From the NCBI GenBank assembly GCA_004293165.1, contig RDYL01000003.1, positions 186,001 through 250,000 on the forward strand: a stretch of 64,000 nucleotides of DNA, read 5' to 3'. A program made the translations under genes and the position numbers. Positions within the stretch are counted from its first letter, which is position 1. Each line of letters begins with the position of its first letter. The notes beneath the pieces are model-generated. The model was not told the origin of the DNA. It made no database searches and saw nothing but the letters and a program-made list of their open reading frames with translations. Shown one piece after another: positions 24,557-44,289 of this stretch. This DNA comes from Flavobacteriia bacterium. GTDB taxonomy: Bacteria; Bacteroidota; Bacteroidia; Flavobacteriales; Flavobacteriaceae.

Positions 24557-24639
24557 GTATATAATGGTTCGTAAATTGTTTAAAAATATTATCAATTAAA
24601 TTTACAATATTAATGTTTAACCAAATAAAATTCGATATT

Positions 24640-26712
24640 ATGAAAAAAATTACTTTTTTGCTATCACTTATGATAAGCTCATTGGGTTTTGCTCAAAACC
24701 TTGTGACTAATGGTGATTTTCAAACGGGTACCGCAGCACCCTGGTACAATAATGCTGCAAATGTAGTTGATTTAGGTGGAGGAAACTTTTTAAATCAAGC
24801 CAATGTGCAAGGTGTTGGTAATCCTTGGGATGTAAACTTAAGTCAAGAAATTTTATTAGACAATGGTAAAACATACAACTTTACTTTTGATGCTTTTACA
24901 GATGCAATAACGGGTTCAAGAACTATTCTAGCTGGTTTAGGACAAACAGGAGCTCCTTATTCTTCTTTAACATACACAACTACTTTAACTGCTACACCTC
25001 AGACTTTTACTTATCAAATTACTATTAATTATGGTAATGCTGTTCCTGATAGGGTTATTTTTGATTTAGGGGCTGCTTTAGGTTACGTTTTTATAGATAA
25101 TGTTTCTGTTACAGAAGTTATTAATACTTGTACCAATGGCGTTCAAGATGGAACTGAAACTGGTGTAGATTGTGGTGGAACTTGCACACCATGTTCATCA
25201 TTACCAACTACTAATGCGCCTATTCCTACTCATCTTGCAGCAAATGTTGTTTCAGTTTTTAGCGATTCTTATCCAAGTATTGCAACAAATTTAAATCCAA
25301 ATTGGGGTCAAAGTGGATCAGTTAATCCAAATTTTGTTGTTGCTGGTGGAAACAATATTTTAGCTTACACAAATTTTAATTATCAAGGAACAGAAGTTAC
25401 ACCTTCAAATTTATCAACTATGGAATTTTTACATGTTGATGTTTGGTCTGTTTCTAATCCAACAAATACCATTCTAAAAGTTAGTCCTATAAGCAATGCC
25501 GGTGGAGCAGTAGAAGTTTTAGTTACTTTAAATCATGTTCAAGGTAATTGGTATAGTGTTGATATTCCAAAATCATCATTTACTGGTATGACTTGGACAA
25601 ATGTATATCAAATTAAATTTGCAGCAAATGGACCTGGAAGTATAACACCTGCAAATTTTTATTTAGATAATATTTATTTTTGGAAAGTTGGCGTTGATCC
25701 AACTGCAGATGCAACTTTAAGTGACTTAAAAATTAATGGTTCAACAATTGCTGGTTTTGGTTCAGGTGTTGAAAATTATACTTATGAATTATTAACTGGC
25801 TCAACAGTTGTTCCTCAAATTACAAGTGTTACAGCCACTAACTCATCAGCTACTACTGTGATTACTCAAGCTACAGGTTTACCAGGAATCGCAACTGTTG
25901 TTGTAACTTCTGCAAATTCTGCAGTTACTAAAACGTATAGAGTTAATTTTGTGGTTACAGGTCCATCAACAAATGCACCTACGCCTCCAGCGAGACCAGT
26001 TAATGATGTCATTTCTTTATTTAGTGATGCATATACAAATATTGGTGTAACAGAATGGTCAACATCATGGGATGATTCAAGTATTCAAGATATTTCCCTT
26101 TTAGGTAATGCAATGAAAAAAGTAAATTTTGTAAACTTCTTAGGAGTTCAATTTGCTGAATATCAAAATGCAACTTCAATGACGCATTTTCACATGGATT
26201 ATTACATCGATGCAGGAACAAATTTAACAGGTAAAGTACTTAATCCAAAATGGTCAAATCATGCTGCTCAATCTGGTGAAACTTCTGCATTATTACTTAC
26301 AAACCTTCCAACTACAGCTGGTTCTTGGGTTTCTTTAGATGTTCCATTAACTACTTTTGGCGGAACAGGATCAGCAAAAAATGCATTATATCAGTTCTTA
26401 TTAACATCTAATTTATCGTCTGTTTATATTGACAATATTTATTTACATAAAAACACTATTTTATCTTCTGATAACTTTGCTGTTTCTCAAGTTAAATTAT
26501 ATCCAAATCCAACAGCAAGTACTTTAAATATTGAAGCTTTAGCAAATATCCAATCTATTGCTATTTACAATATTATAGGTCAAGAAGTAATGACTAAAGA
26601 AGTGAATAGCTCAACAATCAGTCTTGATGTTTCTAGCCTTAAATCAGGTGTTTATGTTATAAAAACTATGATTGATGGTAATTTATCTTCTACAAAATTC
26701 ATTAAAGAATAA
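24640..26712 (+). CDS. T9SS-exported multi-domain glucan-binding candidate
   Basis: The start at 24640 (MKKITFLLSLMISSLGFAQ) gives the signal peptide; an ATG 27 bases upstream would add a non-signal leader. The 690-residue product has no catalytic domain that I recognise. In order: a CBM4/9-like beta-sandwich (about 20-160, NLVTNGDFQTG ... VFIDNVSV), a Cys-rich spacer (TNGVQDGTETGVDCGGTC), a first module of about 155 residues (NAPIPTHLAANVVSVFSDSY ... FYLDNIYFWK), a cadherin-like beta-sandwich (ATLSDLKINGSTIAGF...), a second copy of the module (NDVISLFSDAYTN ... VYIDNIYLHK) and a T9SS type A sorting domain (VKLYPNPTAS ... LKSGVYVIK). It probably captures glucan at the cell surface. It is monocistronic with its own terminator. 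Confidence 0.78.
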   Translation: MKKITFLLSLMISSLGFAQNLVTNGDFQTGTAAPWYNNAANVVDLGGGNFLNQANVQGVGNPWDVNLSQEILLDNGKTYNFTFDAFTDAITGSRTILAGLGQTGAPYSSLTYTTTLTATPQTFTYQITINYGNAVPDRVIFDLGAALGYVFIDNVSVTEVINTCTNGVQDGTETGVDCGGTCTPCSSLPTTNAPIPTHLAANVVSVFSDSYPSIATNLNPNWGQSGSVNPNFVVAGGNNILAYTNFNYQGTEVTPSNLSTMEFLHVDVWSVSNPTNTILKVSPISNAGGAVEVLVTLNHVQGNWYSVDIPKSSFTGMTWTNVYQIKFAANGPGSITPANFYLDNIYFWKVGVDPTADATLSDLKINGSTIAGFGSGVENYTYELLTGSTVVPQITSVTATNSSATTVITQATGLPGIATVVVTSANSAVTKTYRVNFVVTGPSTNAPTPPARPVNDVISLFSDAYTNIGVTEWSTSWDDSSIQDISLLGNAMKKVNFVNFLGVQFAEYQNATSMTHFHMDYYIDAGTNLTGKVLNPKWSNHAAQSGETSALLLTNLPTTAGSWVSLDVPLTTFGGTGSAKNALYQFLLTSNLSSVYIDNIYLHKNTILSSDNFAVSQVKLYPNPTASTLNIEALANIQSIAIYNIIGQEVMTKEVNSSTISLDVSSLKSGVYVIKTMIDGNLSSTKFIKE

Positions 26713-26756: not shown

Positions 26757-26820
26757 TTTTTTAAAATCATTTTTTTATGAAACTATTATTATATATCTTT
26801 AATTTCTAATATCATTGCAA

Positions 26821-29628
26821 ATGCAACTTCATAAAATTCTATTTAGACTTAGTTTATTTTTGGTTTCTTTAGTTTGTTCAGCTCAACAACTTCCTCCCAT
26901 TGTGAAATATTCTAAAGATATATATAATGCTGGCATTCAAAACTGGATGATTTCTCAAGATAATCATCGTTTTATGTATTTTGCTAATAATGAAGGATTA
27001 TTAGAATTTAATGGTTCAAAATGGATATTAAATCCTTCTCCCAATGAGACAATTATACGTTCGGTGAAATGTATAAATGATAAAATATATACAGGAGCTT
27101 TTATGGAATTTGGCTTCTGGGAACGCGGTGTTAATGGACAATTATTTTACAACTCATTGAGTGAAGCAATAAAGGATAAAATTAATGATGATGAACAATT
27201 TTGGGGTATCTTTCCATTTGATAATTGGATTCTTTTCCAATCTCTTGAAAAAATATATGCCTACAATACAAAAACAAAATCGTTTACTATAATTGATCCT
27301 AAAAGTACTATAAATAAAGCATTTAAAACATCTAATGGTATTTACTTTCAAACTACTAAAGGGCTTTACGAGATTGATCAAGGCAAAAGTAAATTATTCT
27401 TGAATCATGAAATTGTCAACCAAAACAAACTGATTAACATATATTATGCTAATAACGAGTTAATTTTAGTTACACAAAACCAAGGAATTTATAAATATAA
27501 AAATGGTTTGTTAAGTAAGTTTACGACTACTATTGATTCAGAAATTCAACAAAGTAATATATACAGTAGTCAACTATTGTCTGATGAAAGTATCGCTTTG
27601 GGTTCAATTTCAAATGGTATATTTATTATATCCAAAGAAGGTAAACTTATTTACCATATTACACAAAACGATGGATTGAGCAATAACACAGCGCTTTCAC
27701 TTTTTGAAGATATAGATAAAAACTTATGGATTGGTCTAGATAACGGCATTAATTGCATTAATCTAAAATCGCCTATAAAAATTTATTCTGATAATACAGG
27801 AATTTTAGGCACAACATATACTTCTATAACTCACAACAATAAATTATATATTGGAACAAATCAAGGACTATTTTGTAAGGATTTAAATTCAGCTACTAAA
27901 TTTGAATTTGTTCAAAACACTAAAGGTCAAGTTTGGTCTTTATTCTCGTACCAAAATACCCTCTTTTGCGGTCATGATTCCGGAACTTATATTGTTAAAG
28001 GTACAACTGCAAACTTTATTTATAAAGGCTCTGGTACCTGGAAATTTGAACCTTTTTTCAATGGAAGTAATTATATTTTACAAGGAAACTATAATGGAAT
28101 ATCTGTTTTAGAGAAAAAAAATAATTCTTGGGTTTTCAGAAATAAAATAAAAGGTTTTAATTACTCTTCAAAACATTTTGAGATTTTAGATGCTAAAGAA
28201 ATTTATATAAGTCACGAATATAAAGGGGTTTATAAAATTAAAATTGATAAATCTCTACTTAATGCCTATGATTTGTATAAATTTAAAAGTCCCAAAAAAG
28301 GGAAGAATGCAACTATTGCGAAGTATAATAATCAAATCTATTATGCTTCCAAAGAAGGAGTTTTTAAATTAAATACAAAATCAAAATTATTTGAATATAA
28401 TTCTATATTAAGTGTAATTTTTCAAAATGATGAATATGTTACAGGAAAAATGATTGTAGATAAGTCCAACAAATTATGGTTCTTTACAAAAAATTACATT
28501 CATTACTATTCATCAGGTAAGTTGTCTTCAGAATTAAAGAAAAATAGTTTGCCCATTCCTTCTTTTTTGACCAACACCATGCCTGGTTATGAAAACATTT
28601 TACAATTAAGCGATGATAGTTATTTAATTGGAACTACTGATGGTTATTACGTATTAAATAACAATGATATTAAATTTAATAATCATAAAGTATTGGTTTA
28701 TGGAATTTCAAATAATGTAATCAATGCAAAATCTACCAATATTTCACTGAACGAAAAGGGAACTTTTAAACATGATGAAAACAATATTGCGTTTAATTAT
28801 ACGGTACCAGAATTTGATAAATATATAAATGCGGAGTATCAATATAAATTGGACGGGCTTCATAACCAATGGAGTGATTGGTCGTTTGAATCCCAAGTTG
28901 TTTTTGAAAATTTACCAGCGGGTGAATATGAATTTAGTGTTAGAGCTAAAGTTGCTAATTCAATAACTGAAAATATTGCAACGTATTCATTTGTTGTGAA
29001 AAAACCATGGTATTCTAATAATTGGGCTAAGTTCATATATTTTATTTTACTTACAACTATCGGATATTATATCCATAAGTTTTACACAATTTATCATGAA
29101 AAACGCCACCAAAGAATTATTTCTGAAAACAACATTTTGTTAGAACTGAAAGAGTTGGAAAACGAGCAGAAAATAATGAAAATTAAAAATGAACAGCTTA
29201 CGTTAGATGTAGATAAAAAGAATAAAGAACTTGCTGTTTCAACAATGAATTTAATTAAAAAAACAGAACTATTAAATATTATTAAAGGCGATTTAAAAAA
29301 TTCTGCGGATAGTTCCACAAATAGTATTAAATCGGTTATTTCAACTATTAATAAAAACGTAAAAGAAGAAAATACTTGGAATATTTTTAAAGAAGCTTTT
29401 GATAGCGCCGATAATAATTTTCTTAAAAAAGTTAAAGAGATTCATCCATCTCTAACGCCAAATGATCTTAGACTTTGTGCTTATTTGAGATTGAATTTAT
29501 CATCTAAGGAAATAGCACCTTTACTAAATATTTCAGTACGTAGTATTGAAATTAAAAGATATCGTTTGCGTAAAAAAATGGATTTACCTCACGAACAAGG
29601 CTTAGTTGAGTATATCTTACAATTTTAA
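26821..29628 (+). CDS. Membrane-anchored two-component-propeller regulator with LuxR-type HTH
   Basis: The start is the ATG at 26821 (MQLHKILFRLSLFLVSLVCS, signal peptide); a TTG six bases upstream is possible. The 935-residue protein has a periplasmic two-component-regulator propeller (about 25-640, repeats such as NLWIGLDNGINCINL), a Y_Y_Y domain (about 650-735, EYQYKLDGLHNQWSDWSF), one membrane helix (about 742-760, FIYFILLTTIGYYIH), a coiled coil, and a C-terminal LuxR/GerE-like helix-turn-helix (DLRLCAYLRLNLSSKEIAPL ... SVRSIEIKRYRLRKK). No kinase or receiver domain is present. It should sense a glucan fragment in the periplasm and act on DNA while membrane-bound. It sits between the two transcription units it probably controls. 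Confidence 0.85.
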   Translation: MQLHKILFRLSLFLVSLVCSAQQLPPIVKYSKDIYNAGIQNWMISQDNHRFMYFANNEGLLEFNGSKWILNPSPNETIIRSVKCINDKIYTGAFMEFGFWERGVNGQLFYNSLSEAIKDKINDDEQFWGIFPFDNWILFQSLEKIYAYNTKTKSFTIIDPKSTINKAFKTSNGIYFQTTKGLYEIDQGKSKLFLNHEIVNQNKLINIYYANNELILVTQNQGIYKYKNGLLSKFTTTIDSEIQQSNIYSSQLLSDESIALGSISNGIFIISKEGKLIYHITQNDGLSNNTALSLFEDIDKNLWIGLDNGINCINLKSPIKIYSDNTGILGTTYTSITHNNKLYIGTNQGLFCKDLNSATKFEFVQNTKGQVWSLFSYQNTLFCGHDSGTYIVKGTTANFIYKGSGTWKFEPFFNGSNYILQGNYNGISVLEKKNNSWVFRNKIKGFNYSSKHFEILDAKEIYISHEYKGVYKIKIDKSLLNAYDLYKFKSPKKGKNATIAKYNNQIYYASKEGVFKLNTKSKLFEYNSILSVIFQNDEYVTGKMIVDKSNKLWFFTKNYIHYYSSGKLSSELKKNSLPIPSFLTNTMPGYENILQLSDDSYLIGTTDGYYVLNNNDIKFNNHKVLVYGISNNVINAKSTNISLNEKGTFKHDENNIAFNYTVPEFDKYINAEYQYKLDGLHNQWSDWSFESQVVFENLPAGEYEFSVRAKVANSITENIATYSFVVKKPWYSNNWAKFIYFILLTTIGYYIHKFYTIYHEKRHQRIISENNILLELKELENEQKIMKIKNEQLTLDVDKKNKELAVSTMNLIKKTELLNIIKGDLKNSADSSTNSIKSVISTINKNVKEENTWNIFKEAFDSADNNFLKKVKEIHPSLTPNDLRLCAYLRLNLSSKEIAPLLNISVRSIEIKRYRLRKKMDLPHEQGLVEYILQF

Positions 29629-29940: not shown

Positions 29941-32900
29941 ATGAGAAAAATTATTCTATTACTAACCTTTTGTTTTTCTTCTTCAATATTTGCTCAAGCA
30001 GATAAAATTGTTGTTGAAAATAATAATTCAGGTCATCGACTTAAAGTTAATGGTAAAGACTTTATGGTTAAAGGTATGAACTGGGATTATTATCCTATTG
30101 GTACTAACTATAATTATAGTCTTTGGAAGCAGTCAGATGACGTAATTATAACTGCACTAGATGCCGAAATGTCTTTATTGAAAAATATGGGTGTTAATAC
30201 CGTACGACAATATACAGGTGTTCCAGCTAAATGGATTAAATATATTTATGAAAAGTATGGTATTTACACCATGTTAAATCATTCGTTTGGAAGATATGGT
30301 CTTACAATCGATGGTACTTGGGTAGCTAATACGGAATATTCAGATAAAAGAACGCAAGAATTATTGTTATCTGAGGTGAAAAGTATGGTTACTGAATATA
30401 AAAATACTCCAGGGATATTGTTGTTTTTATTAGGTAATGAAAACAATTATGGTCTTTTCTGGGATGGTGCCGAAACAGAGGATATTCCAATTCAAAACAG
30501 AAAATCAACCGTGCGTGCTGAGTCGATGTACAAATTATTTAACAAAGCTGTTTTAGAAATGAAAGCTATAGATAATTCTCATCCAATGGCGATTTGTAAT
30601 GGTGATTTACTTTTCCTAGATATCATCGTAAGAGAATGTAAAGACATAGATATTTTGGGTACTAATATGTATCGAGGGGCAACTTTTACAGATGCTTTTG
30701 AAAGAGTTAAAAAAGAATTTGGAAAACCGTTATTATTGACTGAGTTTGGTTCCGATTCTTTTAATGCAATTGACAATCAAGAAGATCAAAAATCGCAAGC
30801 TTATTATATGATTGAGAATTGGAAAGATATCTATTCTAATGCTGCAGGACTTGGTAAAAATGAAAATTCATTAGGAGGTTTTACTTTTCAATTTAGTGAT
30901 GGTTGGTGGAAATATGGCCAAACTAAAAATTTAGAAGTGCATGATAATAATGCTTCTTGGTCTAATGGTGGTTATCCATTTGATTTTAAAGAAGGTCAAA
31001 ACAATATGAACGAAGAATGGTTTGGAATTTGTGCAAAAGGTCCTGTGAATTCTAGAGGTTTGTATGAATTATATCCAAGAGCTGCCTATTATGCTATTAA
31101 AGAAGTGCATAGAATTAGTCCTTATGATGAAGGGGTTACTGCTGATAATTTAAATGAATATTTTAAAAATATTAATTTAATGGACGCTTTGCTACGAGCA
31201 AGATCGGATAAGGCTGCTTTAGGAGGTAAAGAGGGTGAAATAGTAAAAATAAGTAATTTAAGAGCTGAGTTTACAACCTTCAACACTGGTGGAAGTTTGA
31301 TTACAACTCCAAATGTTGCGGATCCTGATAACGTTGTTTATCCAAATGAATTAGGCTTCGATCACATGGAATCATATTACATAGGTGTAGAGGGTAATCC
31401 TGCACCAAATATGAAAGCAAATGTGAATGTTAATATTTTAGGAAGAGTAGCTGAAAATCCAATCAACGAAATTTTTTACGAAAACAGAGGGCGTACGCAA
31501 ACAGTTGATACACCAGACGGACCTGTAGTTATAGGCGATAATAATAGAGTTCAAGTATATAATGCTTCTTATTCATGGAATGAAAAAGATTTTGAATTAA
31601 GAGGTTTTTACAGAACAGGTCATTACCACTGGGGGTATGAAGGTGATATTTTTGCACTATATCCTGAAGCAAATTATGGTCCTAACCTAGATATTTATAA
31701 TGGTGAAACACTAGGTTTCGAAATTGATGGTAAAAGAAGTTTAGACGGATTAAAAGTGGCTGTAGGTCCTCAATTATGGTGGGGCGCTAATCCAACTTAT
31801 TTATTAAAGTATAGTAAAAATGTTTTAAACTGGGATATAACAGGTATTTATCATAGAGATATAAATACAGATGTAGAATATGATTCAAGTGGTAAACGTA
31901 TTTTAAATCAAAATCAAGTTAGAACGGGTATCATTCCTGCTTGGCCAACTGAAAGAGCAACCATTGCATTACAAAGAAAATTTGGAGCTTTCGGAATTAC
32001 TTTAGGCGGTATATGGGGTGGAAGACCATTAAATGGAAGTACTTTCCAAATGTATGAAAATGGTATAGTGTATAATGATTACATTAATGCAAAAGATAAT
32101 TGGGGTGGTAAAGCTAAGTTTACTTTCTCCAAAGGAAGATTTAATATTTACACGCAAGGAGCAATTATGGGATTAGTTGCTAATGGAGGAGCAGATAATG
32201 TCCAAACATTTACAGGCTGGAGATTAAAAGATAGTGGAAGTGGAAACCAAATGAACTTTTTAACCGGTTTTACTTATAATGTGAACTCAAATTTACAAAT
32301 TGCACCTAACTTTTTATGGCAAAAACCATTAGTTGAGGCGATGCCTAATGGTGTTGACGCTCCTGGAAGATTAAGAAATTTTCAAGATGATCCATTTGTT
32401 GTTAGAGTGAATAGAGAAACAGTTGGAGGTGAGTTATTATTAACATGGGACCCAACTCCAGCAACTTGGATGTATGAATGGAATAATGATATGGTTGAAG
32501 ACGCAAAATTTGCTTTTAGTACTGGTTTTGTATACCGTCATTTACCAACAACAATGGATGCAGCTATTGGATTTTTAGCAAATCGTACAGCTTTTGCTTT
32601 TGAAAAATCAGCACCTGCACAAGATTTATGGGAGTCAAATACTAGAATTGTTTCTAAATTAACACCAGATCTTGGTTTAATTGCTAATGTTTATTTTGGA
32701 AATGGTCAAGGTAATGGTGATTCAGAACGAACTATTAATAGATCTGGAGCTGATGTTAGAATGATTTACAAAAAAGTTAAATTAACAAGTTCTATCAAAT
32801 TTAACGATTGGGGACCTTACGATTACCACCGCGATTTCAACTTAACTTATCCTGTACAATCATCAATCGATCTTTCAACTTCTGTTGGAAAACCAAGCTG

Positions 32901-33093
32901 GTTTATTTTACCTGATACTAGAATTGGAATCATGGGTATTTGGCGTTCATTAGATCAATATTCGCCACGTTATTCACCTAATGCTGTTCCTGCTAATACT
33001 TATCCTCCAGTACCTACAATTAGTCCTGTTGGATTTGGAAATGGTTCTGAATGGGAAATTAGAACATACATTCACATAAATATTGGTAAATAA
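29941..33093 (+). CDS. Clan GH-A glycosidase TIM barrel fused to an outer-membrane beta-barrel
   Basis: This 1050-residue protein has a signal peptide (1-19, ...SSSIFAQ) and a TIM barrel (about 22-395) that resembles GH2-C/GH5-like catalytic domains: FMVKGMNWDYYP, acid/base candidate E167 in LLGNENN and nucleophile candidate E268 in LLLTEFGSDS. The GH family is unassigned; a transglycosylase is possible. From about residue 405 to the end the sequence becomes alternating aromatic/polar beta-strands (RVQVYNASYSWNEKDFELRG, WNDMVEDAKFAFSTGFVYRH by type, ending EWEIRTYIHINIGK), as in outer-membrane porins. It heads the run of glucan genes, in a locus without SusC/SusD, so the barrel may anchor the enzyme or pass products. 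The channel role is inference. Confidence 0.72.
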   Translation: MRKIILLLTFCFSSSIFAQADKIVVENNNSGHRLKVNGKDFMVKGMNWDYYPIGTNYNYSLWKQSDDVIITALDAEMSLLKNMGVNTVRQYTGVPAKWIKYIYEKYGIYTMLNHSFGRYGLTIDGTWVANTEYSDKRTQELLLSEVKSMVTEYKNTPGILLFLLGNENNYGLFWDGAETEDIPIQNRKSTVRAESMYKLFNKAVLEMKAIDNSHPMAICNGDLLFLDIIVRECKDIDILGTNMYRGATFTDAFERVKKEFGKPLLLTEFGSDSFNAIDNQEDQKSQAYYMIENWKDIYSNAAGLGKNENSLGGFTFQFSDGWWKYGQTKNLEVHDNNASWSNGGYPFDFKEGQNNMNEEWFGICAKGPVNSRGLYELYPRAAYYAIKEVHRISPYDEGVTADNLNEYFKNINLMDALLRARSDKAALGGKEGEIVKISNLRAEFTTFNTGGSLITTPNVADPDNVVYPNELGFDHMESYYIGVEGNPAPNMKANVNVNILGRVAENPINEIFYENRGRTQTVDTPDGPVVIGDNNRVQVYNASYSWNEKDFELRGFYRTGHYHWGYEGDIFALYPEANYGPNLDIYNGETLGFEIDGKRSLDGLKVAVGPQLWWGANPTYLLKYSKNVLNWDITGIYHRDINTDVEYDSSGKRILNQNQVRTGIIPAWPTERATIALQRKFGAFGITLGGIWGGRPLNGSTFQMYENGIVYNDYINAKDNWGGKAKFTFSKGRFNIYTQGAIMGLVANGGADNVQTFTGWRLKDSGSGNQMNFLTGFTYNVNSNLQIAPNFLWQKPLVEAMPNGVDAPGRLRNFQDDPFVVRVNRETVGGELLLTWDPTPATWMYEWNNDMVEDAKFAFSTGFVYRHLPTTMDAAIGFLANRTAFAFEKSAPAQDLWESNTRIVSKLTPDLGLIANVYFGNGQGNGDSERTINRSGADVRMIYKKVKLTSSIKFNDWGPYDYHRDFNLTYPVQSSIDLSTSVGKPSWFILPDTRIGIMGIWRSLDQYSPRYSPNAVPANTYPPVPTISPVGFGNGSEWEIRTYIHINIGK

Positions 33094-33111: not shown

Positions 33112-34536
33112 ATGAAAAATAAAACATATAATTATTTAAGAAATGCATTTCTTTTAGGATTAGTGGTAATTACTAATTTGAATTGTGAAAGAGAAATGTC
33201 TGACGATGCTACCTTGGCAACGTTTTCTAAAAATGGAGAAATCTTTACAGACAATTTTATTGGTCTCGGAAGTGATTTTTATTTTCCTTACGGTGATTCA
33301 AAATTTACTGCATTTTCTGTTGATGATAACGAAGCTTATCTTGGAAACGCTTCTATACGAATAGATGTGCCTAACGCAAATGATCCATTAGGAAGTTATG
33401 CTGGAGGTATTTTTAGAATAGATGGTGCTGGGAGAGATTTAACTGATTTTGATGCATTAACTTTTTGGGCTAAATCTTCGCAAGGGGTAACTATTGGTGA
33501 ATTTGGTTTTGGTGAAGATTTCTATCCTAATGAGTTCATGGTTACTATGAAAGATGTTAGTGTTGGTACCCAATGGACAAAATACATCATCCCAATTCCT
33601 GATGCTTCTAAACTTTTACACGAAAGAGGAATGTTCAGATTTGCAGCTGGTACTAATGGTACAAACGGATTTGGTTATACCTTGTGGATTGATGAATTGC
33701 GATTTGAAAAATTAGGTACTATTGCACATGGTCAAGCATCTATTGAAAACGGAAACAATGTGACTGAAACAACATTTGTTGGTGTTAATTCAAGAGTTGA
33801 AGGTGTAATAGCTACGTTTAATTTGCCAACAGGAATTAATCAATCTATTACCATAAGTCCATCTTACATGAACTTTACGTCTTCAAATCCTTCTGTTGCT
33901 TCTGTTGATGCTGCAGGTTTAATAACTTCCTTAAGTGCTGGAACTTCTACGATAACTGCAACATTTGGAAATCAATCTGCTACGGGCAGTTTAACCATCA
34001 ATTGTCAAGGAACATTCGTTGCTGCACCTATACCTACTAGACCACAGTCTAATGTAATTTCCATTTTTTCAGATAGGTATGCCAACGTTCCAGTAAATTA
34101 TTATAATGGCTATTGGGCTCCATGGCAAACAACTCTTTCAAATGATTTTTCAGTTAATGGCGACAATATTTTAAATTATACAGTTTTTAATTTTGTGGGA
34201 ATTGAATTTAGCAGTCCAACGATTAATGCTACAGCAATGACACACGTTCATTTAGATGCTTTTATTCCAGGTCCAATTGCTCCAGGTAGACAACTTAGAG
34301 TACTTCTTATTGATTTTGGTGCAGATGGGGCATATGGTGGCGGTGACGATACAAGACACTCTACTACTTTTACTGCATCAACACCAACAGCTGTTGTATC
34401 ACAAAATTGGATTTCTATAGATATACCTTTTTCTGCAATGCCAGGTCTAGTAAGTAGATCGCATTTAGCTCAACTTATTCTAGAAGGTGGTGATAGTTCA
34501 GTAATTTATGTTGATAACATTTATTTTTATAACTAA
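33112..34536 (+). CDS. Surface lipoprotein, candidate glycan-binding protein
   Basis: This 474-residue lipoprotein has a type II signal with lipidation at C25 (NLNCEREMSDD). The box is weak, but the acidic residues after Cys fit a Bacteroidetes surface-export signal. An N-terminal jelly-roll-like domain (about 40-235, DFDALTFWAKSSQGVTIGEF ... LWIDELRFEK) is followed by a bacterial Ig-like (Big_2) domain (ITISPSYMNFTSSNPSVASV) and a C-terminal module of about 160 residues (SNVISIFSDRYAN ... VIYVDNIYFYN). This last module is homologous to the two modules in the exported protein at 24640. No catalytic motif is seen. It lies 18 bases after the enzyme-barrel gene and 34 before GH16, so it probably plays the SusD/SGBP-like binding role. 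Confidence 0.75.
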   Translation: MKNKTYNYLRNAFLLGLVVITNLNCEREMSDDATLATFSKNGEIFTDNFIGLGSDFYFPYGDSKFTAFSVDDNEAYLGNASIRIDVPNANDPLGSYAGGIFRIDGAGRDLTDFDALTFWAKSSQGVTIGEFGFGEDFYPNEFMVTMKDVSVGTQWTKYIIPIPDASKLLHERGMFRFAAGTNGTNGFGYTLWIDELRFEKLGTIAHGQASIENGNNVTETTFVGVNSRVEGVIATFNLPTGINQSITISPSYMNFTSSNPSVASVDAAGLITSLSAGTSTITATFGNQSATGSLTINCQGTFVAAPIPTRPQSNVISIFSDRYANVPVNYYNGYWAPWQTTLSNDFSVNGDNILNYTVFNFVGIEFSSPTINATAMTHVHLDAFIPGPIAPGRQLRVLLIDFGADGAYGGGDDTRHSTTFTASTPTAVVSQNWISIDIPFSAMPGLVSRSHLAQLILEGGDSSVIYVDNIYFYN

Positions 34537-34570: not shown

Positions 34571-35377
34571 ATGACTAAAAAAATAAAGAAAAGTCTTCTC
34601 TTAGCAAGTACATTATTATTGTTATTGGGATGTTCTACCGATGAAAAACAAACCGTTACTACTATGAAACAATTGGTATGGCAAGATGAATTTAATGTAA
34701 ATGGCGCTCCTGATAATACATTATGGTCGTATGACATTGGTACAGGAAATAACGGATGGGGAAATAATGAATTACAATATTATACTAGTAGACCAGAAAA
34801 TATTGTTGTAGAAAACGGAATGCTTAAAATTACAGCAAAAAGAGAGCTGTACTTGGGTTCGGGTTATACTTCTGCAAAAATAGTAACCAAAGGAAAGTTT
34901 GAAAAAAAATACGGCCGTTTTGAAGCCCGTATTAAATTGCCTTGGGGCAGAGGATTATGGCCAGCATTTTGGATGTTAGGCTCTAATATTGACCAAGTAA
35001 GTTGGCCACAATGTGGTGAAATAGATATCATGGAATATTTAGGGAATCGACCAACATCTATTTTTGGAACAGTTCATGGTCCTGGTTATTCAGGTGGGGC
35101 TTCTATTTCTAAAACGTATACACTTCCTAACAATAGATTTGATAATGATTTTCACGTTTTTGGAATAGAATGGGGTGAAAATTACATCAATTATTATGTT
35201 GACGATGTTTTATACAACCAAATTACACCTGATGATGTGCCTGGAGATTGGGTTTTTAACGATTCCTTTTACATGATTCTTAATATGGCTGTAGGGGGTA
35301 ACTTACCAGGGAGTCCTAATAGCGATACCGTTTTTCCACAAGAAATGTTAGTGGATTATGTTAGAGTTTATCAATAA
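34571..35377 (+). CDS. GH16 family endo-beta-1,3-glucanase (laminarinase-like), surface lipoprotein
   Basis: This 268-residue lipoprotein (lipobox LLLGC, C21, then STDEK, which suits surface export) contains one GH16 domain. The catalytic motif EIDIME is complete (nucleophile E150, D152, acid/base E155), and the aromatic cleft WPAFWMLGSN and FHVFGIEW are present. The insertion-free EIDIME form is the laminarinase branch, which hydrolyses internal beta-1,3 bonds and often mixed-linkage glucan. It is in the same run as the glycan-binding lipoprotein. An unusual intergenic hairpin follows, before the phosphorylase gene. Confidence 0.92.
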   Translation: MTKKIKKSLLLASTLLLLLGCSTDEKQTVTTMKQLVWQDEFNVNGAPDNTLWSYDIGTGNNGWGNNELQYYTSRPENIVVENGMLKITAKRELYLGSGYTSAKIVTKGKFEKKYGRFEARIKLPWGRGLWPAFWMLGSNIDQVSWPQCGEIDIMEYLGNRPTSIFGTVHGPGYSGGASISKTYTLPNNRFDNDFHVFGIEWGENYINYYVDDVLYNQITPDDVPGDWVFNDSFYMILNMAVGGNLPGSPNSDTVFPQEMLVDYVRVYQ

Positions 35378-35486: not shown

Positions 35487-38400
35487 ATGAACAATTGCCA
35501 AACTATATTTGTTGAAAATGAATTAGAAGATAAAAAGGTATCCATGGATATCGTTTTATTAAATGGAGAAAAATATTATAAAATCGCCAATAACGATAGT
35601 ATGCGCCCATTTTTCATGAGCATAGTAAGCGATTCGAATCATTGGATGTTTATTTCAAGTAATGGTGGTCTTACTGCGGGTAGAAAAAATGCTGAATTTG
35701 CGCTATTTCCTTACTATACAGATGATAAAATAACAGAATCTTATGATAGTACTGGAAGCAAGTCTATTTTTCAAATCCATTGGAACAATGAAATTAAAAT
35801 TTGGGAACCTTTTTCAGAACGTTTTTCAGATAATATTTATGCTATTTCAAGGAATTTATATAAAAACTTACACGGCAATAAGGTAATTTTTGAAGAAATT
35901 AACCATGACTTACAAATTACATTTCGATACCAATGGAATTCAAGCCATCAATATGGATTTATTAGAAAGTCAGAGTTAATTAATCATTCTAACATTGATT
36001 ATCAAATTTCATTCGTTGATGGAATTCAAAATATCATGCCTTATGGCGTTAGTAGCGATTTACAAAATGCCGCAAGTAATTTAGTAGATGCCTACAAACG
36101 AAGTGAATTAGATGCAGAAACAGGTGTAGGAATTTATGCTTTAAGTGCTATCATTGTTGATAAAGCAGAACCAAGTGAAGCGTTAAAAGCCAATATTGTT
36201 TGGTCATTAGGACTACAAAAACCTAATTATTTGGTTTCTTCATTACAACTTTCTACGTTTAGAAAAAAACAGCCTGTTGTTCCAGAATTTGATGTGAAAG
36301 GTGAAAAAGGAGCTTATTTTTTATCCTCTGAAATTTTATTACCTAAAAATTCTAAACAAAATTGGATGATTATTGCGAATGTAAATCAAGATCATTCAGA
36401 TGTTGCACAAATTCAAAAAATCATTCAGTCGGAAAACAATATTTTAGACTTAATTCAACAAGATATTGAGCAGGGTACAAAAAAACTAATTGAACTTAAT
36501 GCGTCTTCTGATGCTTTACAGCTAACAAATGACAATTTAAGAGATACCCGACATTTTGCAAATACGTTATTTAATATTATGCGTGGTGGTATATTTGATT
36601 TCAATTATCAAATTGAAAAACAAGATTTCCTCATTTATATAAAAAATGCAAATAGCAGCGTATTTCAAAAACTTGAAAATGACATAAATCAATTACCCAA
36701 TACATTTTCTTTAGAAACGTTAAAAGACTTTGCTGTTCAACATCATAATACTGATTTTGAGCGTTTAAGTTTAGAATATTTACCTTTAAAATTCAGTAGA
36801 CGCCATGGCGATCCTAGTCGTCCATGGAATAAATTTTCCATCAATACACAAAGCGAAATTGACGGTTCCAAAATTTTAGATTACGAAGGAAACTGGCGAG
36901 ATATTTTTCAAAACTGGGAAGCCTTAGCGCATTCTTTTCCTGATTTTATTGAAAATATGATTCATAAATTTCTGAATGCTACCACTTTTGACGGTTACAA
37001 TCCATATCGCGTTACTAAGGGTGGTTTTGATTGGGAAACGGTTGAAGAAGATAATCCTTGGTCCTATATAGGATATTGGGGAGATCATCAAATAATTTAT
37101 CTATTAAAATTTTTAGAATTTATTGAAAATCACCAGCCTAATAAACTGGAAGTTTATTTTAATAACGATATTTTTGTTTATGCAAATGTTCCGTATGTAA
37201 TTAAATCTTACGAGGATATTTTGAAAAATCCAAAAGATACAATTCTATTTAATCATGAATTGGATGGGAAAATTCGTGAAGAACGAAATATAATTGGTGC
37301 TGATGGTGCTTTATTAAAAGATGCCAACGGCGAAATTTATAAAGTCAATTTTATTGAAAAAATGTTGGCGACAGTATTGGCAAAAATGTCAAATTTTATT
37401 CCAGAAGGCGGTATTTGGCTAAATACACAACGACCAGAATGGAATGATGCCAATAACGCATTAGTTGGAAATGGAGTTTCTATGGTTACACTATATTACC
37501 TTAGAAGATTTCTAAATTATTTCCAAAATTTGATTGCTACGACCGATGTTGAGCAAATCAAAATTTCTAATGAAATGGTAGAATTCTATCATTCCGTTAG
37601 AGAAAATTTAATCAAATATGAACCTTTGTTAGCAGGTAAATTTACCGATGCCGATAGAAAAACAATATTAGATGCACTAGGTAAAGCGGCTTCAGAATAC
37701 CGTCACCAAGTATATCAAAATGGTTTTTGGGGTAACAAAAGAACACATTCTATGGACGGATTAAAGCGTTTCATAGCTGTAAGTATAAAATTTATTGATC
37801 ATTCTATTGCTGCCAATAAACGAACAGATAATTTGTATCATGCCTATAATTTAATGACGATTGTAAATGATAAAGAAGTTTCGGTTTCTTATTTAAGCGA
37901 AATGTTAGAAGGTCAGGTAGCTGTTTTAAGTTCAGGCTATTTATCTTCAAAAGAAGTGTTACAAGTATTAGATGGATTAAAAAACAGCAAGCTTTTTAGA
38001 CAAGATCAATACAGTTATATTCTGTATCCTAATAATGAGTTGCCAAAATTCAATGAGAAAAATACAATTCCAAATGAGATTGTTGCAAAATCAGCATTAC
38101 TTTCTGAATTAATTGCTGCTAACAACACCCAAATTATTGAAAAAGATTGTTTTGGAAAGTATCATTTCAATGGGAATTTTAAAAATGCGGCCGATGTAGA
38201 AAAAGCACTAGATGCATTATCAAATTCTTCCTATTCGATACAACTTAAAAATGATAAAAACCTTGTTTTACAAACTTATGAAACCGTTTTTAATCATAAA
38301 TCGTTTACAGGGCGTTCAGGTACTTTTTACGGGTACGAAGGTTTGGGCTCTATTTATTGGCACATGGTTTCTAAACTACAATTAGCAGTACAAGAATGTT

Positions 38401-38957
38401 GTTTAAAAGCTGTTGAAGAAAGAGAATCTCCTGAAGTTATTGGCAGATTGTTAGAACACTATTATGAAATTAACGAAGGAATTGGTGTTCATAAATCACC
38501 CGCTTTGTATGGTGCTTTCCCAACAGATCCTTACTCACATACACCTGCAGGAAAAGGGGCACAACAGCCTGGTATGACAGGGCAAGTTAAAGAAGATATA
38601 TTGAGCCGTTTTGGAGAATTAGGCGTTTTTGTGAAACAAGGAACTTTATTCTTCAATCCATGCTTATTGCGAAAAGATGAATTTTTGTCTGAAGAAACTT
38701 TATTTAATTATGTTGATATCAATTTTAAACATTCTTCAATTCAATTAAAAGCAAATTCACTTTGTTTTACGTATTGTCAAATACCAATTATTTATAAAAT
38801 AGCGCAACAAAATGAAATAGAAGTTACTTATAAAGATAATCACATTCAAAAGTTTGATGGTTTGAAATTAGATAGTAAAACCAGTTTAAAAGTTTTTAAA
38901 AGAGTTGGTGAAATTATTCAAATTACGGTAAGTGTTGTTGAAAATGAATTAAAGTAG
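35487..38957 (+). CDS. Inverting beta-glucan phosphorylase, GH94/GH149/GH161 type
   Basis: This 1156-residue protein has no signal peptide, so it is cytoplasmic. An N-terminal beta-sandwich (about 1-300) is followed by a helical linker and an alpha/alpha barrel (about 410-1060) with SIGYWGDHQ-like sequence (YIGYWGDHQIIYLL) and RPEWNDANNALVGNG, where D654 is the candidate general acid, equivalent to the Asp of the WND motif in cellobiose phosphorylases. A glycine-rich GMTGQVKED segment may hold phosphate. Size and context suit beta-1,3-oligoglucan phosphorylases of GH149 or GH161, which release glucose 1-phosphate from the chain end and so save ATP. Which of the two families applies cannot be settled by eye. 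Confidence 0.72.
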   Translation: MNNCQTIFVENELEDKKVSMDIVLLNGEKYYKIANNDSMRPFFMSIVSDSNHWMFISSNGGLTAGRKNAEFALFPYYTDDKITESYDSTGSKSIFQIHWNNEIKIWEPFSERFSDNIYAISRNLYKNLHGNKVIFEEINHDLQITFRYQWNSSHQYGFIRKSELINHSNIDYQISFVDGIQNIMPYGVSSDLQNAASNLVDAYKRSELDAETGVGIYALSAIIVDKAEPSEALKANIVWSLGLQKPNYLVSSLQLSTFRKKQPVVPEFDVKGEKGAYFLSSEILLPKNSKQNWMIIANVNQDHSDVAQIQKIIQSENNILDLIQQDIEQGTKKLIELNASSDALQLTNDNLRDTRHFANTLFNIMRGGIFDFNYQIEKQDFLIYIKNANSSVFQKLENDINQLPNTFSLETLKDFAVQHHNTDFERLSLEYLPLKFSRRHGDPSRPWNKFSINTQSEIDGSKILDYEGNWRDIFQNWEALAHSFPDFIENMIHKFLNATTFDGYNPYRVTKGGFDWETVEEDNPWSYIGYWGDHQIIYLLKFLEFIENHQPNKLEVYFNNDIFVYANVPYVIKSYEDILKNPKDTILFNHELDGKIREERNIIGADGALLKDANGEIYKVNFIEKMLATVLAKMSNFIPEGGIWLNTQRPEWNDANNALVGNGVSMVTLYYLRRFLNYFQNLIATTDVEQIKISNEMVEFYHSVRENLIKYEPLLAGKFTDADRKTILDALGKAASEYRHQVYQNGFWGNKRTHSMDGLKRFIAVSIKFIDHSIAANKRTDNLYHAYNLMTIVNDKEVSVSYLSEMLEGQVAVLSSGYLSSKEVLQVLDGLKNSKLFRQDQYSYILYPNNELPKFNEKNTIPNEIVAKSALLSELIAANNTQIIEKDCFGKYHFNGNFKNAADVEKALDALSNSSYSIQLKNDKNLVLQTYETVFNHKSFTGRSGTFYGYEGLGSIYWHMVSKLQLAVQECCLKAVEERESPEVIGRLLEHYYEINEGIGVHKSPALYGAFPTDPYSHTPAGKGAQQPGMTGQVKEDILSRFGELGVFVKQGTLFFNPCLLRKDEFLSEETLFNYVDINFKHSSIQLKANSLCFTYCQIPIIYKIAQQNEIEVTYKDNHIQKFDGLKLDSKTSLKVFKRVGEIIQITVSVVENELK

Positions 38958-39053: not shown

Positions 39054-40334
39054 ATGAATATATTTGTTTATATAGAATCAACTTTCAAATATGTACTGAT
39101 AGCTACAGTACTATGTATCGTTTTTTCCTGTAAACAAGTGTATAATGGTAGTACCCAAAAAAAATATAACGTGACTGCAAAAGAAATACTCGGAAATCCA
39201 AACTATTTAGCCATTTGTTATGGCGGTTATAGAAAAAATAGTAGAGAAATTCAACCTACAGTGAATCAATTAAAGCAAGACTTATTGATTTTAGCAGCTA
39301 TGAATATTAAAATAGTGCGAACCTACAATGTTCATTTAGTGCATGCTTCTAATGTGCTAAAGGCAATTTCCGAATTAAAAAAGGAAGATAAAAATTTTGA
39401 AATGTATGTCATGCTTGGCGCTTGGATTGATTGTAAATATGCATGGACTGAGCAAACTCCAGATCATGATTTAGAAAGTCAGCGGAATGCAATTGAAATT
39501 AACGAAGCGGTTCGACTCGCTAACTTATATCCAGAGATTGTGAAAGTCATTGCAGTTGGAAACGAAGCAATGGTAAAATGGGCTACAGCGTATTATGTGC
39601 AACCAAAAGTTATTTTAAAATGGGTAAATTATTTACAACAATTAAAAAAGGAAAATAAATTATCAAAAGATTTATGGATTACTTCATCAGATGATTTTGC
39701 TTCATGGGGCGGAGGAGATGATAGTTATAAAACGAAAGATTTAGAAGATTTAATTAATGCAGTTGATTATGTTTCAATGCATACGTATCCTTATCATAAC
39801 ACCCATTATAACCCAAGTTTTTGGAACGTTCCTCAGGATGAAAATCAACTAACCGAACAAGAGCAAGTAACTAAGGCAATGCATCGTTCTATCGCATTTG
39901 CTAAAATGCAGTATGCAACTGTAAAAAATTATGTTCGAAGTATAAATCCTAGTAAACCTATTCATATTGGTGAAACTGGCTGGGCATCAAGTTCAGATGG
40001 TTTTTATGGAAAGGAAGGTTCTGGAGCATCTGATGAATACAAACAAGCTATTTATTACAAAGCCATGAGAGAATGGACAAATAGTGAAGGAATTTCTTGT
40101 TTTTTCTTTGAAGCTTTTGATGAACCTTGGAAAGACAGTAATAATCCGCTAGGTTCAGAAAATCATTTTGGGATTTTTACAGTAGATGGTAAAGCAAAGT
40201 ATGCAGTATGGGATAAAGTAGAGGAAAATGCTTTTTCTGGCTTAAAACGTGACGAAAAAGTAATTGTAAAAACATATTCTGGAAATAAAGAGTTACTAAT
40301 ACAAAGTGTTTTAGCACCACCAAAAAAAGGGTAA
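39054..40334 (+). CDS. GH17 family beta-1,3-glucanase, lipoprotein
   Basis: This 426-residue lipoprotein (IVFSCKQ, C26) carries a GH17 TIM barrel. Acid/base E171 lies in AVGNEAM and nucleophile E307 in IGETGW; substrate-cleft sequence VDYVSMHTYPYHNTH is also present. Bacterial GH17 enzymes cut or transfer beta-1,3-glucan chains. It is the first gene of a tightly packed block (next start one base after its stop). A second, non-exported GH17 lies at 43354. The membrane facing cannot be told from sequence; the residue after Cys is Lys and not acidic, so periplasmic retention is possible. Confidence 0.88.
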   Translation: MNIFVYIESTFKYVLIATVLCIVFSCKQVYNGSTQKKYNVTAKEILGNPNYLAICYGGYRKNSREIQPTVNQLKQDLLILAAMNIKIVRTYNVHLVHASNVLKAISELKKEDKNFEMYVMLGAWIDCKYAWTEQTPDHDLESQRNAIEINEAVRLANLYPEIVKVIAVGNEAMVKWATAYYVQPKVILKWVNYLQQLKKENKLSKDLWITSSDDFASWGGGDDSYKTKDLEDLINAVDYVSMHTYPYHNTHYNPSFWNVPQDENQLTEQEQVTKAMHRSIAFAKMQYATVKNYVRSINPSKPIHIGETGWASSSDGFYGKEGSGASDEYKQAIYYKAMREWTNSEGISCFFFEAFDEPWKDSNNPLGSENHFGIFTVDGKAKYAVWDKVEENAFSGLKRDEKVIVKTYSGNKELLIQSVLAPPKKG

Positions 40335-40335
40335 C

Positions 40336-41826
40336 ATGAAAGGGAAAAATTACATAGTAAGTCTTTTAATTTTTGTAACAATGATAAATTGCAAAGGTGT
40401 AAATAATGCTTTTGAAGTAACTGTATATGAAACTTCAGCCAACAAAAATGCTCTTACAGAAGTAAATCAATTTTCTACTTCAGAAAATAAGGCAAAAATT
40501 ACGATTAATACAGCGCAAAAGTTTCAAACGATTACGGGTTTTGGCGGGTCTTTTACAGAGGCTTCGGCCTACCTATTGAATAAATTAAGTAAAGAAAACA
40601 GGAAGAAAGTTTTAGAAGCTTACTTCAGTGAAAACGGAGCAAATTATTCATTAACACGAACAACAATAGCGTCTTGCGATTTTTCTCTCAATAATTATAC
40701 TTATGCTAAAGTAGAAAATGATGTAGCATTAGAGCATTTTACGATAGAAGACGATAAAGCAGATATTATTCCCATGATTTTAGAGGCGAAAGCTATTTCT
40801 AAAGAAGGATTTAACATCATTGCATCCCCTTGGTCATGTCCGCCTTGGATGAAAGATAATAAAAGTTATGTTGGTGGAAAATTACTTCCTGAATATAACG
40901 ACACTTTTGCCTTGTATTTTTCTAAATATTTACAAGCTTATCAAAAGGAAGGGATTGATATTTGGGGAGTTACTGTTATTAACGAACCACATGGAAATGG
41001 TAATAACTGGGAAAGTACTTTGTTTTCTCCGAAAGAAATGACCGATTTTGTACAAAATCACTTAGGTCCTAAATTAGAAAATGACGGATGGAAGGATGTT
41101 AAAATATTAGGTTACGATCAAAACAGAGCTGGCTTAAAAGAATGGGTTGATGAAATGTATCGTGATGAAAAGGCTTCAAAATATTTTGGAGGTACAGCCA
41201 TCCATTGGTATGAAAGTACCTATGAAGTATTTCCTGATGCACTACAATACGCACACCACAAAGCGCCTACTAAACATTTAATTCAAACCGAAGCTTGTGT
41301 TGATTCAGAAGTACCCCATTGGCAAGACGATGCTTGGTATTGGAAAAAAGAAGCTACCGATTGGGGCTGGGATTGGGCAAGTGAGCAAGATAAATATTTG
41401 CATCCAAAATATGCTCCCGTGAATCGTTATGCAGAAGACATTATTGGTTGTTTAAATAATCAAGTTGATGGTTGGGTAGATTGGAATATGGTTTTAGATA
41501 GACAAGGTGGCCCAAATTGGTTTAAAAACTGGTGTGTAGCTCCCGTAATTGTTGATGCTGAAAATGACGAAGTGTATTTTACCCCATTGTATTACGTAAT
41601 GGGACATTTTAGCAAATTCATGCGACCCGGAGCGGTTAAAATTGGTTGCGAAGTCAATAATAAACAACTTAAAGTTACTGCCGTTCAAAATCTAGATAAG
41701 TCAATTGCTCTTGTAATATTTAATCCAACAGCAACTAAACATACATTAGAATTACAAATTAACAATCAAAATACAATCCTTTCAATTGATGCACAAGCAT
41801 TACAAACTGTGATTATAAAAAAATAA
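40336..41826 (+). CDS. GH30 family beta-glucosidase/beta-1,6-glucanase, lipoprotein
   Basis: This 496-residue lipoprotein (TMINCKG, C19) has a GH30 TIM barrel plus the C-terminal side beta-domain. Landmarks are FQTITGFGGSFTEASAYLL, acid/base E217 in VINEPHGNG and nucleophile E319 in LIQTEACVDS. GH30_3-type members remove beta-1,6-linked glucose branches from laminarin, which suits the neighbours here; glucosylceramidase-like activity is the alternative within the family. It starts one base after the GH17 stop and ends four bases before the transporter gene. Confidence 0.9.
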   Translation: MKGKNYIVSLLIFVTMINCKGVNNAFEVTVYETSANKNALTEVNQFSTSENKAKITINTAQKFQTITGFGGSFTEASAYLLNKLSKENRKKVLEAYFSENGANYSLTRTTIASCDFSLNNYTYAKVENDVALEHFTIEDDKADIIPMILEAKAISKEGFNIIASPWSCPPWMKDNKSYVGGKLLPEYNDTFALYFSKYLQAYQKEGIDIWGVTVINEPHGNGNNWESTLFSPKEMTDFVQNHLGPKLENDGWKDVKILGYDQNRAGLKEWVDEMYRDEKASKYFGGTAIHWYESTYEVFPDALQYAHHKAPTKHLIQTEACVDSEVPHWQDDAWYWKKEATDWGWDWASEQDKYLHPKYAPVNRYAEDIIGCLNNQVDGWVDWNMVLDRQGGPNWFKNWCVAPVIVDAENDEVYFTPLYYVMGHFSKFMRPGAVKIGCEVNNKQLKVTAVQNLDKSIALVIFNPTATKHTLELQINNQNTILSIDAQALQTVIIKK

Positions 41827-43354: not shown

Positions 43355-44289
43355 TGTCAAATAGAACTACCTATAATTTTCATCTTTCTGATTTTAAAAA
43401 TGAGGAAAACTTCGGTATTCTTGATAGTTTTGAAGGCTTTCATTTTTCAAATTCAAAATCAGATTTGATTGATTTATTTGCAAATACTTTAGCACAAGGG
43501 ATGCACGGACTTTGTTTTAGTCTCTATGAAGATGGACAACAGCCAGGTGATACTATTTCTGAGGAACAAGTGCGAAGAAGATTAGAAATTATGGCTCCTT
43601 ATACGAAATGGGTGCGTTCTTTTTCTTGTACCGAAGGAAATGAATTTATTCCGAAAATTGCTCGTGAATTAGGAATAAAAACTCTTGTTGGTGCTTGGTT
43701 AGGAGATGATGCCAAAAAAAATAATAAAGAAATTAAAGCTTTAATTGAACTAGCAAATGAAGGTTTTGTTGATATTGCTGCGGTAGGAAACGAAGTAATG
43801 TACCGTAAAGATTTATCGGAACACGAATTGTTAGAATATATTGCAAATGTAAAAAATGATATTCCATCTCATATTCCAGTGGGTTATGTAGATGCCTATT
43901 ATGAATTCACAATTAAACCAAGGATAACAGAAGCTTGCGATGTGATTTTAACCAATTGTTATCCCTATTGGGAAGGCTCTAATCAAGATCATGCTTTGGC
44001 ACATATGAAAAGTATGTATTATCAAGCTAAAAGTGCAGCCCAAGGAAAAAAAGTAATCATTACCGAAACAGGCTGGCCTAGTCAAGGCGAAAGTTTTAAA
44101 GATTCGCATCCATCCAAAGAAAACGCAATGAAATATTTCATTAATACGCAACTTTGGTCAAAAGCATCCAATATTGATATTTTTTATTTTTCTTCTTTTG
44201 ATGAGTTATGGAAAGTAGGAGCTGAAGGTGAAGTGGGTGCTTATTGGGGTATTTGGGATAAAAACGAAAAACTAAAATATAATGATTAA
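43354..44289 (+). CDS. Cytoplasmic GH17-type glycosidase
   Basis: This 311-residue protein has a GH17 barrel with acid/base E147 in AVGNEVM and nucleophile E238 in VIITETGWP, and the cleft segment VILTNCYPYWEGSN. It has no signal peptide or lipobox (start MSNRTTYNFHLSDF), unlike the GH17 at 39054, so it should act on imported beta-1,3-oligosaccharides or rearrange them by transglycosylation. Translation is coupled on both sides: one base overlap with the transporter and eight with the following GH16 gene. Confidence 0.85.
   Translation: MSNRTTYNFHLSDFKNEENFGILDSFEGFHFSNSKSDLIDLFANTLAQGMHGLCFSLYEDGQQPGDTISEEQVRRRLEIMAPYTKWVRSFSCTEGNEFIPKIARELGIKTLVGAWLGDDAKKNNKEIKALIELANEGFVDIAAVGNEVMYRKDLSEHELLEYIANVKNDIPSHIPVGYVDAYYEFTIKPRITEACDVILTNCYPYWEGSNQDHALAHMKSMYYQAKSAAQGKKVIITETGWPSQGESFKDSHPSKENAMKYFINTQLWSKASNIDIFYFSSFDELWKVGAEGEVGAYWGIWDKNEKLKYND

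Follow-up and report, generated by a model that had tools for sequence, protein, structure and literature searches.

Gene content of the locus

The window, which is the whole stretch of 64,000 nucleotides that was analysed, contains a gene cluster which, judging by its annotated domains, is of the laminarin (beta-1,3-glucan) type (Table 1). Algae use laminarin as one of their main storage sugars. One gene of the cluster encodes a fusion of a GH-A glycosidase with a predicted outer-membrane beta-barrel. The fusion lies in a single uninterrupted frame of 1050 amino acids and a stop codon, has one N-terminal signal sequence as read by eye (MRKIILLLTFCFSSSIFAQ) and is single-copy in its own genome. 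From the fusion to the last GH16 gene all genes are on the same strand and either overlap or lie no more than 109 bases apart, so that this part of the cluster is likely one operon.

No SusC/SusD pair was found in the window's cluster, which places it outside the definition of a canonical susCD-type PUL. The genome itself has two SusD (PF07980) and two SusC (TIGR04056) genes above cut-off, on contigs C1 and C7, and the window is on contig C10. One of these SusCD pairs adjoins GH97, GH65, alpha-amylase, SusE and LacI genes, the other (L100, C7:195000-214999) a Porin_10 protein, a PNGase F homologue and a tRNA synthetase; beta-glucan genes are found beside neither pair.

Table 1. The fusion, its parts and the neighbouring genes in the window.
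Feature	Position	Strand	Basis
CBM_4_9 protein with type IX secretion tail	24613..26712	+	Pfam
Reg_prop / Y_Y_Y / LuxR-type regulator, directly upstream of the fusion	26815..29628	+	Domain annotation
Fusion of GH-A enzyme and predicted 24-strand outer-membrane barrel, 1050 aa	29941..33093	+	Frame, Pfam, alignment, AlphaFold2
Signal sequence, residues 1-19, ending SIFAQ, no lipobox seen	29941..29997	+	By eye
GH-A TIM barrel, residues ~22-400, E167 and E268	30004..31140	+	Pfam, alignment, fold and profile searches
Linker, residues 401-434, helix at 413-426, lowest conservation (0.51)	31141..31242	+	AlphaFold2, conservation
Predicted 24-strand outer-membrane beta-barrel, residues 435-1050	31243..33090	+	AlphaFold2, topology, fold searches, conservation
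Partner lipoprotein with Big_2 domain, lipobox by eye; putative surface glycan-binding protein	33112..34536	+	Pfam, by eye
GH16	34571..35377	+	Pfam
GH149 beta-1,3-glucan phosphorylase	35487..38957	+	NF058639, 1800.8 bits, cut-off 1150
GH17	39054..40334	+	Pfam
GH30	40336..41826	+	Pfam
MFS_2 sugar transporter	41831..43354	+	Pfam
GH17	43354..44289	+	Pfam
GH16 with type IX secretion tail	44282..45973	+	Pfam

The enzyme domain

The Pfam model GH2_C (PF02836) matches residues 33-278 with an E-value of 9.4e-9 and 35.3 bits, against a cut-off of 21. Neither the GH2 N-terminal sandwich domains nor any further GH2 domain were detected by Pfam at E ≤ 0.01, and the TIM barrel starts immediately after the signal sequence, unlike in the GH2 layout with its N-terminal sandwich domains. 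A first-pass annotation of this DNA had described one frame with one signal peptide and a GH-A barrel with the glutamates E167 (in LGNEN) and E268 (in LTEFG). All of this holds, and both glutamates are invariant in 28 and 79 rows of fused proteins as well as in 36 rows of the enzyme domain.

A plain phmmer search against solved structures gave one weak match (1yq2, E-value 0.024). The 36-row profile of the enzyme domain matched the BuGH158 endo-laminarinase (6pal) with a whole-sequence E-value of 1.1e-7, the best single stretch reaching only 0.0022, a second GH158 at 1e-4 and the GH157 structure 9fz9 at 3.5e-4 over residues 184-346. In both of the GH158 alignments reported by this search, the glutamates of the GNE and TEWG/TEFG motifs of 6pal and 9oro, which we take to be the catalytic residues of GH158, are in register with E167 and E268; in the aligned GH157 stretch the second glutamate alone is in register.

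The fold searches lead to the same families. Foldseek ranks 1 to 11 are all GH157 or GH158. VIA-align gave a Z-score of 28.6 for GH157 (313 residues, rmsd 3.1), 27.8 for human beta-glucuronidase and 27.6 for GH158 (303 residues, rmsd 5.2), scores so nearly tied that the fold alone does not assign the family. The GH-A fold is shared with GH158 (BuGH158, 6pal) and GH157 (LaGH157) at 17-19% identity over the fold alignment, and some entries of both families have bound laminari-oligosaccharides, judging by the entry titles. Among solved relatives the enzyme half thus appears nearest to the beta-1,3-glucanase families GH158 and GH157, a placement by profile and fold which does not fix its CAZy membership. 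The solved GH158 and GH157 chains have 399-528 residues and no space for a membrane barrel, unlike the fusion.

GH72, GH5 and GH17 are absent from the Pfam matches at E ≤ 0.01, which refers to Pfam and not to CAZy models. Of the families named for comparison in the first-pass annotation, GH2 is matched by its TIM-barrel model and GH158 by the profile, and GH5 and GH72 drop out of the Pfam matches. Its proposal of a glucan as the target is supported by the gene cluster and by GH158 and GH157 as the nearest solved relatives.

The barrel domain

Neither Pfam nor NCBIfam has a model that matches residues 405-1050 at E ≤ 1. AlphaFold2 models of the full chain and of the barrel alone, built on 79 sequences, have 24 long strands in residues 435-1048, counted by hand with two short loop hairpins excluded. 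The confidence of the models is middling, with a pLDDT of 78 and pTM of 0.60 for the full chain and a pLDDT of 77 and pTM of 0.75 for the barrel alone. The connections alternate in length, with 12 loops after odd strands (mean 23.7) and 11 turns after even strands (mean 5.2; Mann-Whitney p = 8e-5), and the hydrophobic/polar alternation in the strands exceeds that of all 5000 shuffles; as the strands were taken from the model, both are consistency checks rather than independent tests. In the model the N- and C-termini of the barrel are both on the short-turn side. The predicted barrel is therefore porin-like in its even strand number, long outer loops, short turns and the position of its termini.

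Each of the 50 matches that Foldseek lists for this half is itself an outer-membrane barrel, with TonB receptors, MOMP, Occ porins, AlgE, FimD and LptD among them. The 50 matches listed by VIA-align are likewise outer-membrane barrels and include chitoporin, LamB, FimD, PapC and the complex of mitochondrial Tom40; ushers align over model residues 30-646. With 50 rows per search, absence of a protein from these matches carries no evidential weight. The first-pass annotation had proposed an outer-membrane barrel for this half and a soluble beta-sandwich as the contrary outcome. The prediction bears out the former, and the sandwich is not supported by the strand topology, the barrel-alone model and the Foldseek matches.

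The highest VIA-align Z-scores are 15.4 for AlgE, 14.9 for the Occ porins and 14.7 for MOMP. AlgE as the best structural match would fit an AlgE-like export or remodelling of a glucan made by the cell itself, with the enzyme as an editing hydrolase. We regard this as very improbable, since the three scores lie within 1 of each other and are to be read as tied, and no glycosyltransferase was detected among the ten cluster proteins (Pfam, E ≤ 0.01).

SusC or TonB-dependent receptor models did not match the fusion, neither in NCBIfam (whole chain and C-terminal half, E ≤ 1) nor in Pfam (whole chain at 0.01, C-terminal half at 1). Furthermore, no model of an N-terminal plug was matched, the order being TIM barrel, short helical linker and strand 1, and there is no obvious source of energy for uptake. 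This order also resembles the passenger, helix and C-terminal barrel of an autotransporter, in which case the enzyme would pass through the barrel to the surface, leave the helix before strand 1 in the pore and serve as a surface laminarinase. Autotransporters usually have 12 strands. An autotransporter-like route is unlikely, given the 24 predicted strands, the absence of a match of the C-terminal half to the autotransporter (type Va) translocator model at E ≤ 1 and the passage that it requires of a folded TIM barrel.

In 28 sequences the conservation is 0.78 for lumen-facing and 0.66 for lipid-facing residues (p = 4e-6), a contrast that is partly built in because the two sides were assigned by hydropathy. 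Invariant positions make up 39 of 135 lumen-facing and 14 of 138 lipid-facing residues in the same sequences. The outer loops (0.71) are about as conserved as the barrel overall (0.72), with the linker conserved least. The main rival to a transport function is that the barrel merely holds the glucanase at the outer membrane, a task that a lipid anchor may have in several barrel-less relatives, and passes no sugar. Against this, 24 strands are large for anchoring, and the conservation of the lumen-facing residues and outer loops suggests that the barrel half is probably more than a membrane anchor.

A barrel profile matched 35 of the 395 phylum genomes. All 35 also hold a fused or broken-up enzyme match, and hence no stand-alone barrel family is seen at that sensitivity.

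The first-pass annotation had the enzyme-channel process glucan and pass the products inward. An outward-facing enzyme is not supported, because with both barrel termini predicted on the short-turn side the enzyme is most simply periplasmic. A periplasmic location also draws on the barrel-less relative L101, whose signal sequence is plain and in which neither Pfam nor NCBIfam detects a type IX tail; four other barrel-less relatives are lipoprotein-like by eye.

Spread of the fusion and its partner lipoprotein

The full-length fusion is found in 25 of 121 genomes of the genus, 78 of 397 of the family and 32 of 395 of the phylum, counted by hand from match rows with the own genome included and with overlapping samples. 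Counting any match, the tallies are 29, 131 and 57 genomes. A contig scan with two enzyme-domain patterns found at least 584 relatives, which is a lower bound for the enzyme domain and not a count of fusions. The best 80 of these, the top matches to the window protein, are all fusions and are referred to here as the named loci. Of these, 70 are from Flavobacteriaceae, and the taxa include Flavobacterium, Kordia, Winogradskyella, Polaribacter, Tenacibaculum, Cloacibacterium and a Lewinellaceae genome. In a 28-row alignment spanning the phylum the lowest identity to the window protein is 57%, and 54% for the barrel alone. The recurrence across genus, family and phylum genomes, together with the alignment, rules out a chance or misassembled fusion. 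In two genomes the fusion gene is in pieces (G181:C1:1624682-1627806 and G706:C27:883-3888), possibly through frameshifts or assembly errors.

The gene of the partner lipoprotein, which the first-pass annotation did not mention, starts 18 bases past the fusion and is its constant companion. It is directly downstream in 78 of the 80 named loci, and the other two (L151, L170) end there at a contig edge. Of 30 phylum loci, 29 have it immediately after the fusion, and in G648 it occurs at another place in the cluster. These 30 loci were seen with about 18 kb of flank per side, one side being cut by a contig end in G557, G633, G527 and G535, and exclude G801 (short contig) and G706 (split gene). 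The search for the lipoprotein used the copy in the window as query and may have missed distant forms. By best phmmer match labels, the 80 named loci also have GH16-like genes in 73, GH149 in 61 and SusC in 17 cases.

The lipoprotein of the relative L112 has a weak CBM30-like stretch. In L173, L189 and L155 the partner lipoprotein is far longer (787-842 amino acids), and that of L155 has a weak CBM_4_9-like stretch near its end, below Pfam's cut-off.

Relatives without the barrel

There are also relatives of the enzyme that stop near residue 425 of the window protein. Ten barrel-less genes, drawn from three samples, were judged, with G828, G832, G625 and G733 excluded for short contigs or stops. 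By eye, L104, L106, L107 and L108 resemble lipoproteins, and L101, L102, L103 and L109 have plain signal sequences. In L103 (7382-9436) the barrel-less enzyme is in one frame with a GH16-like domain, 685 amino acids in total. No match to the partner lipoprotein was found in any of nine barrel-less loci.

SusC or SusD is near seven of the ten barrel-less genes, namely SusC in G377, G295, G318, G612, G629 and G030, and a SusD fragment alone on the 3.4-kb contig of G168. The other three (G862, G794, G740) have neither nearby, with weak SusC-like matches further off in G794 (42 bits) and G740 (19 bits). Near the fusion, SusC is found in 4 of the 30 phylum loci, all four belonging to the family of the window (0 of the 26 others), and in 17 of the 61 named loci with enough flank to be judged, where the fusion is intact; L179, with a SusD-like fragment at its edge, was counted as having no SusC. 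SusC and SusD were sought by phmmer at 1e-5 with the two pairs of the own genome, so distant forms may escape.

In raw comparisons that ignore kinship, SusC is near 4 of 30 fused and SusC or SusD near 7 of 10 barrel-less genes (Fisher p = 0.0015). Outside the own family the numbers are 0 of 26 and 2 of 5 (p = 0.02), and the 17 of 61 named loci, mostly Flavobacteriaceae, compare with 5 of 5 barrel-less genes of the own family (p = 0.003). On a tree of the enzyme, which took nine of the barrel-less genes and left out G562 and G753, the barrel label changes seven times, although 38 of the 120 internal branches are open and a number of barrel-less rows are long. In all 6 independent tree pairs the lipoprotein accompanies the barrel (p = 0.03), as it does in 5 of 5 when two long-branch rows are removed (p = 0.0625). 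SusCD and barrel are opposite in 2.6 of 6 pairs and never change the same way (p = 0.25), which is a trend only. After correction for kinship the link between lipoprotein and barrel thus holds weakly.

Judging from these loci, barrel and lipoprotein behave as one module that tends to replace SusCD without excluding it. The first-pass annotation had regarded SusCD as missing at this locus and the fusion as its replacement. The absence is true for the window, and 26 of the 30 phylum loci have no SusC within about 18 kb. It does not extend to every relative, as SusC in 17 of the 80 named and four own-family phylum loci means that the fusion is not only a substitute. The fusion recurs in many genomes of the family and phylum, and the accompanying lack of susCD is a tendency rather than a rule among them.

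These loci also bear on the anchor. A lipid anchor can apparently take the place of the barrel in the four lipoprotein-like relatives, and the presence of SusC beside 17 of the 80 named fusions would be compatible with a barrel that passes no sugar. Conversely, the partner lipoprotein is missing from the nine loci without the barrel, and four barrel-less relatives have plain signal sequences. On balance we consider a mere anchor improbable, though the least so among the alternatives.

Proposed role of the fusion

Our preferred reading, with a probability of roughly 0.6, is that the fusion acts as an outer-membrane enzyme-channel for beta-1,3-glucan (laminarin-type) oligosaccharides, with periplasmic trimming and capture by the lipoprotein; it draws on gene content and predicted structure. 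A secreted GH16 would cleave the laminarin-type polymer, and the lipoprotein encoded by the adjacent gene would catch the pieces where the pore opens. They would enter through the 24-strand barrel, whose outer loops and lumen are conserved, and the GH158/157-like domain, held by the short linker on the periplasmic side, would shorten the oligosaccharides as they emerge. The shortened products would be blocked from exit and passed on to GH17, GH30, the MFS transporter and the GH149 phosphorylase.

A broader view, to which we give somewhat less than even chances, is that Bacteroidota have a second outer-membrane glycan route independent of SusCD and perhaps of TonB, in which a glycosidase-porin fusion with its own lipoprotein achieves one-way uptake trapped by hydrolysis. 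If it is a widespread alternative entry route, searches based on susCD would miss it. The fusion also opens a testable question, whether oligosaccharide import in Bacteroidota can be driven by hydrolysis through a plug-free pore without TonB.

Comparison with known systems

The arrangement resembles a SusC/SusD pair in having a big outer-membrane barrel with a neighbouring lipoprotein in a glycan cluster. It differs in that no SusC model is matched, no plug is found, the lipoprotein is another one and the enzyme is built in. AlgE, the Occ porins, chitoporin and maltoporin, the best fold matches of the barrel half, are outer-membrane barrels, several of them for sugars. They have 16-18 strands, in contrast to the 24 of the fusion, and no enzyme domain.

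Passages from PMC10108472 describe an unclassified glycosidase, 'GH0', beside GH149, GH17, GH30 and GH16 in variant 1 laminarin PULs; in one MAG its expression ranks in the top 10%, and susCD is absent from one variant 1 PUL (PMC10108472). The passages give neither sequence nor barrel, and it is a guess that this 'GH0' is the fusion seen in the window. The laminarin PUL variants are defined in PMC6298971, parts of which also propose that SusC/SusD expression can serve as a proxy for the use of polysaccharides in blooms. A glycosidase-porin fusion is not mentioned in the passages from PMC10108472, PMC6246565, PMC6298971, PMC10811738 and PMC12915301, and searches of the open-licence literature found no description of one.

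In marine Flavobacteriia an MFS-GH17 fusion joins a transporter with a beta-1,3-glucanase in laminarin clusters, according to passages from PMC6246565. That fusion belongs to the inner membrane and the one described here, by prediction, to the outer; in the window the MFS gene overlaps the GH17 gene next to it but remains a gene of its own. If the broader view above is right, the glycosidase-porin route would be the outer-membrane counterpart of MFS-GH17. The MFS and GH17 genes of the window (41831-44289) touch and are unfused. In L103 a single frame of 789 amino acids matches the two, and the MFS frame of L289 is 783 amino acids long.

A more distant relative of the enzyme, about 30% identical, is found in L290-L294 and L297. 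It has 335-352 amino acids, a lipobox-like cysteine by eye and no barrel match, and shares its clusters with GH149, GH17 and MFS. It is perhaps a sister family in the same pathway.
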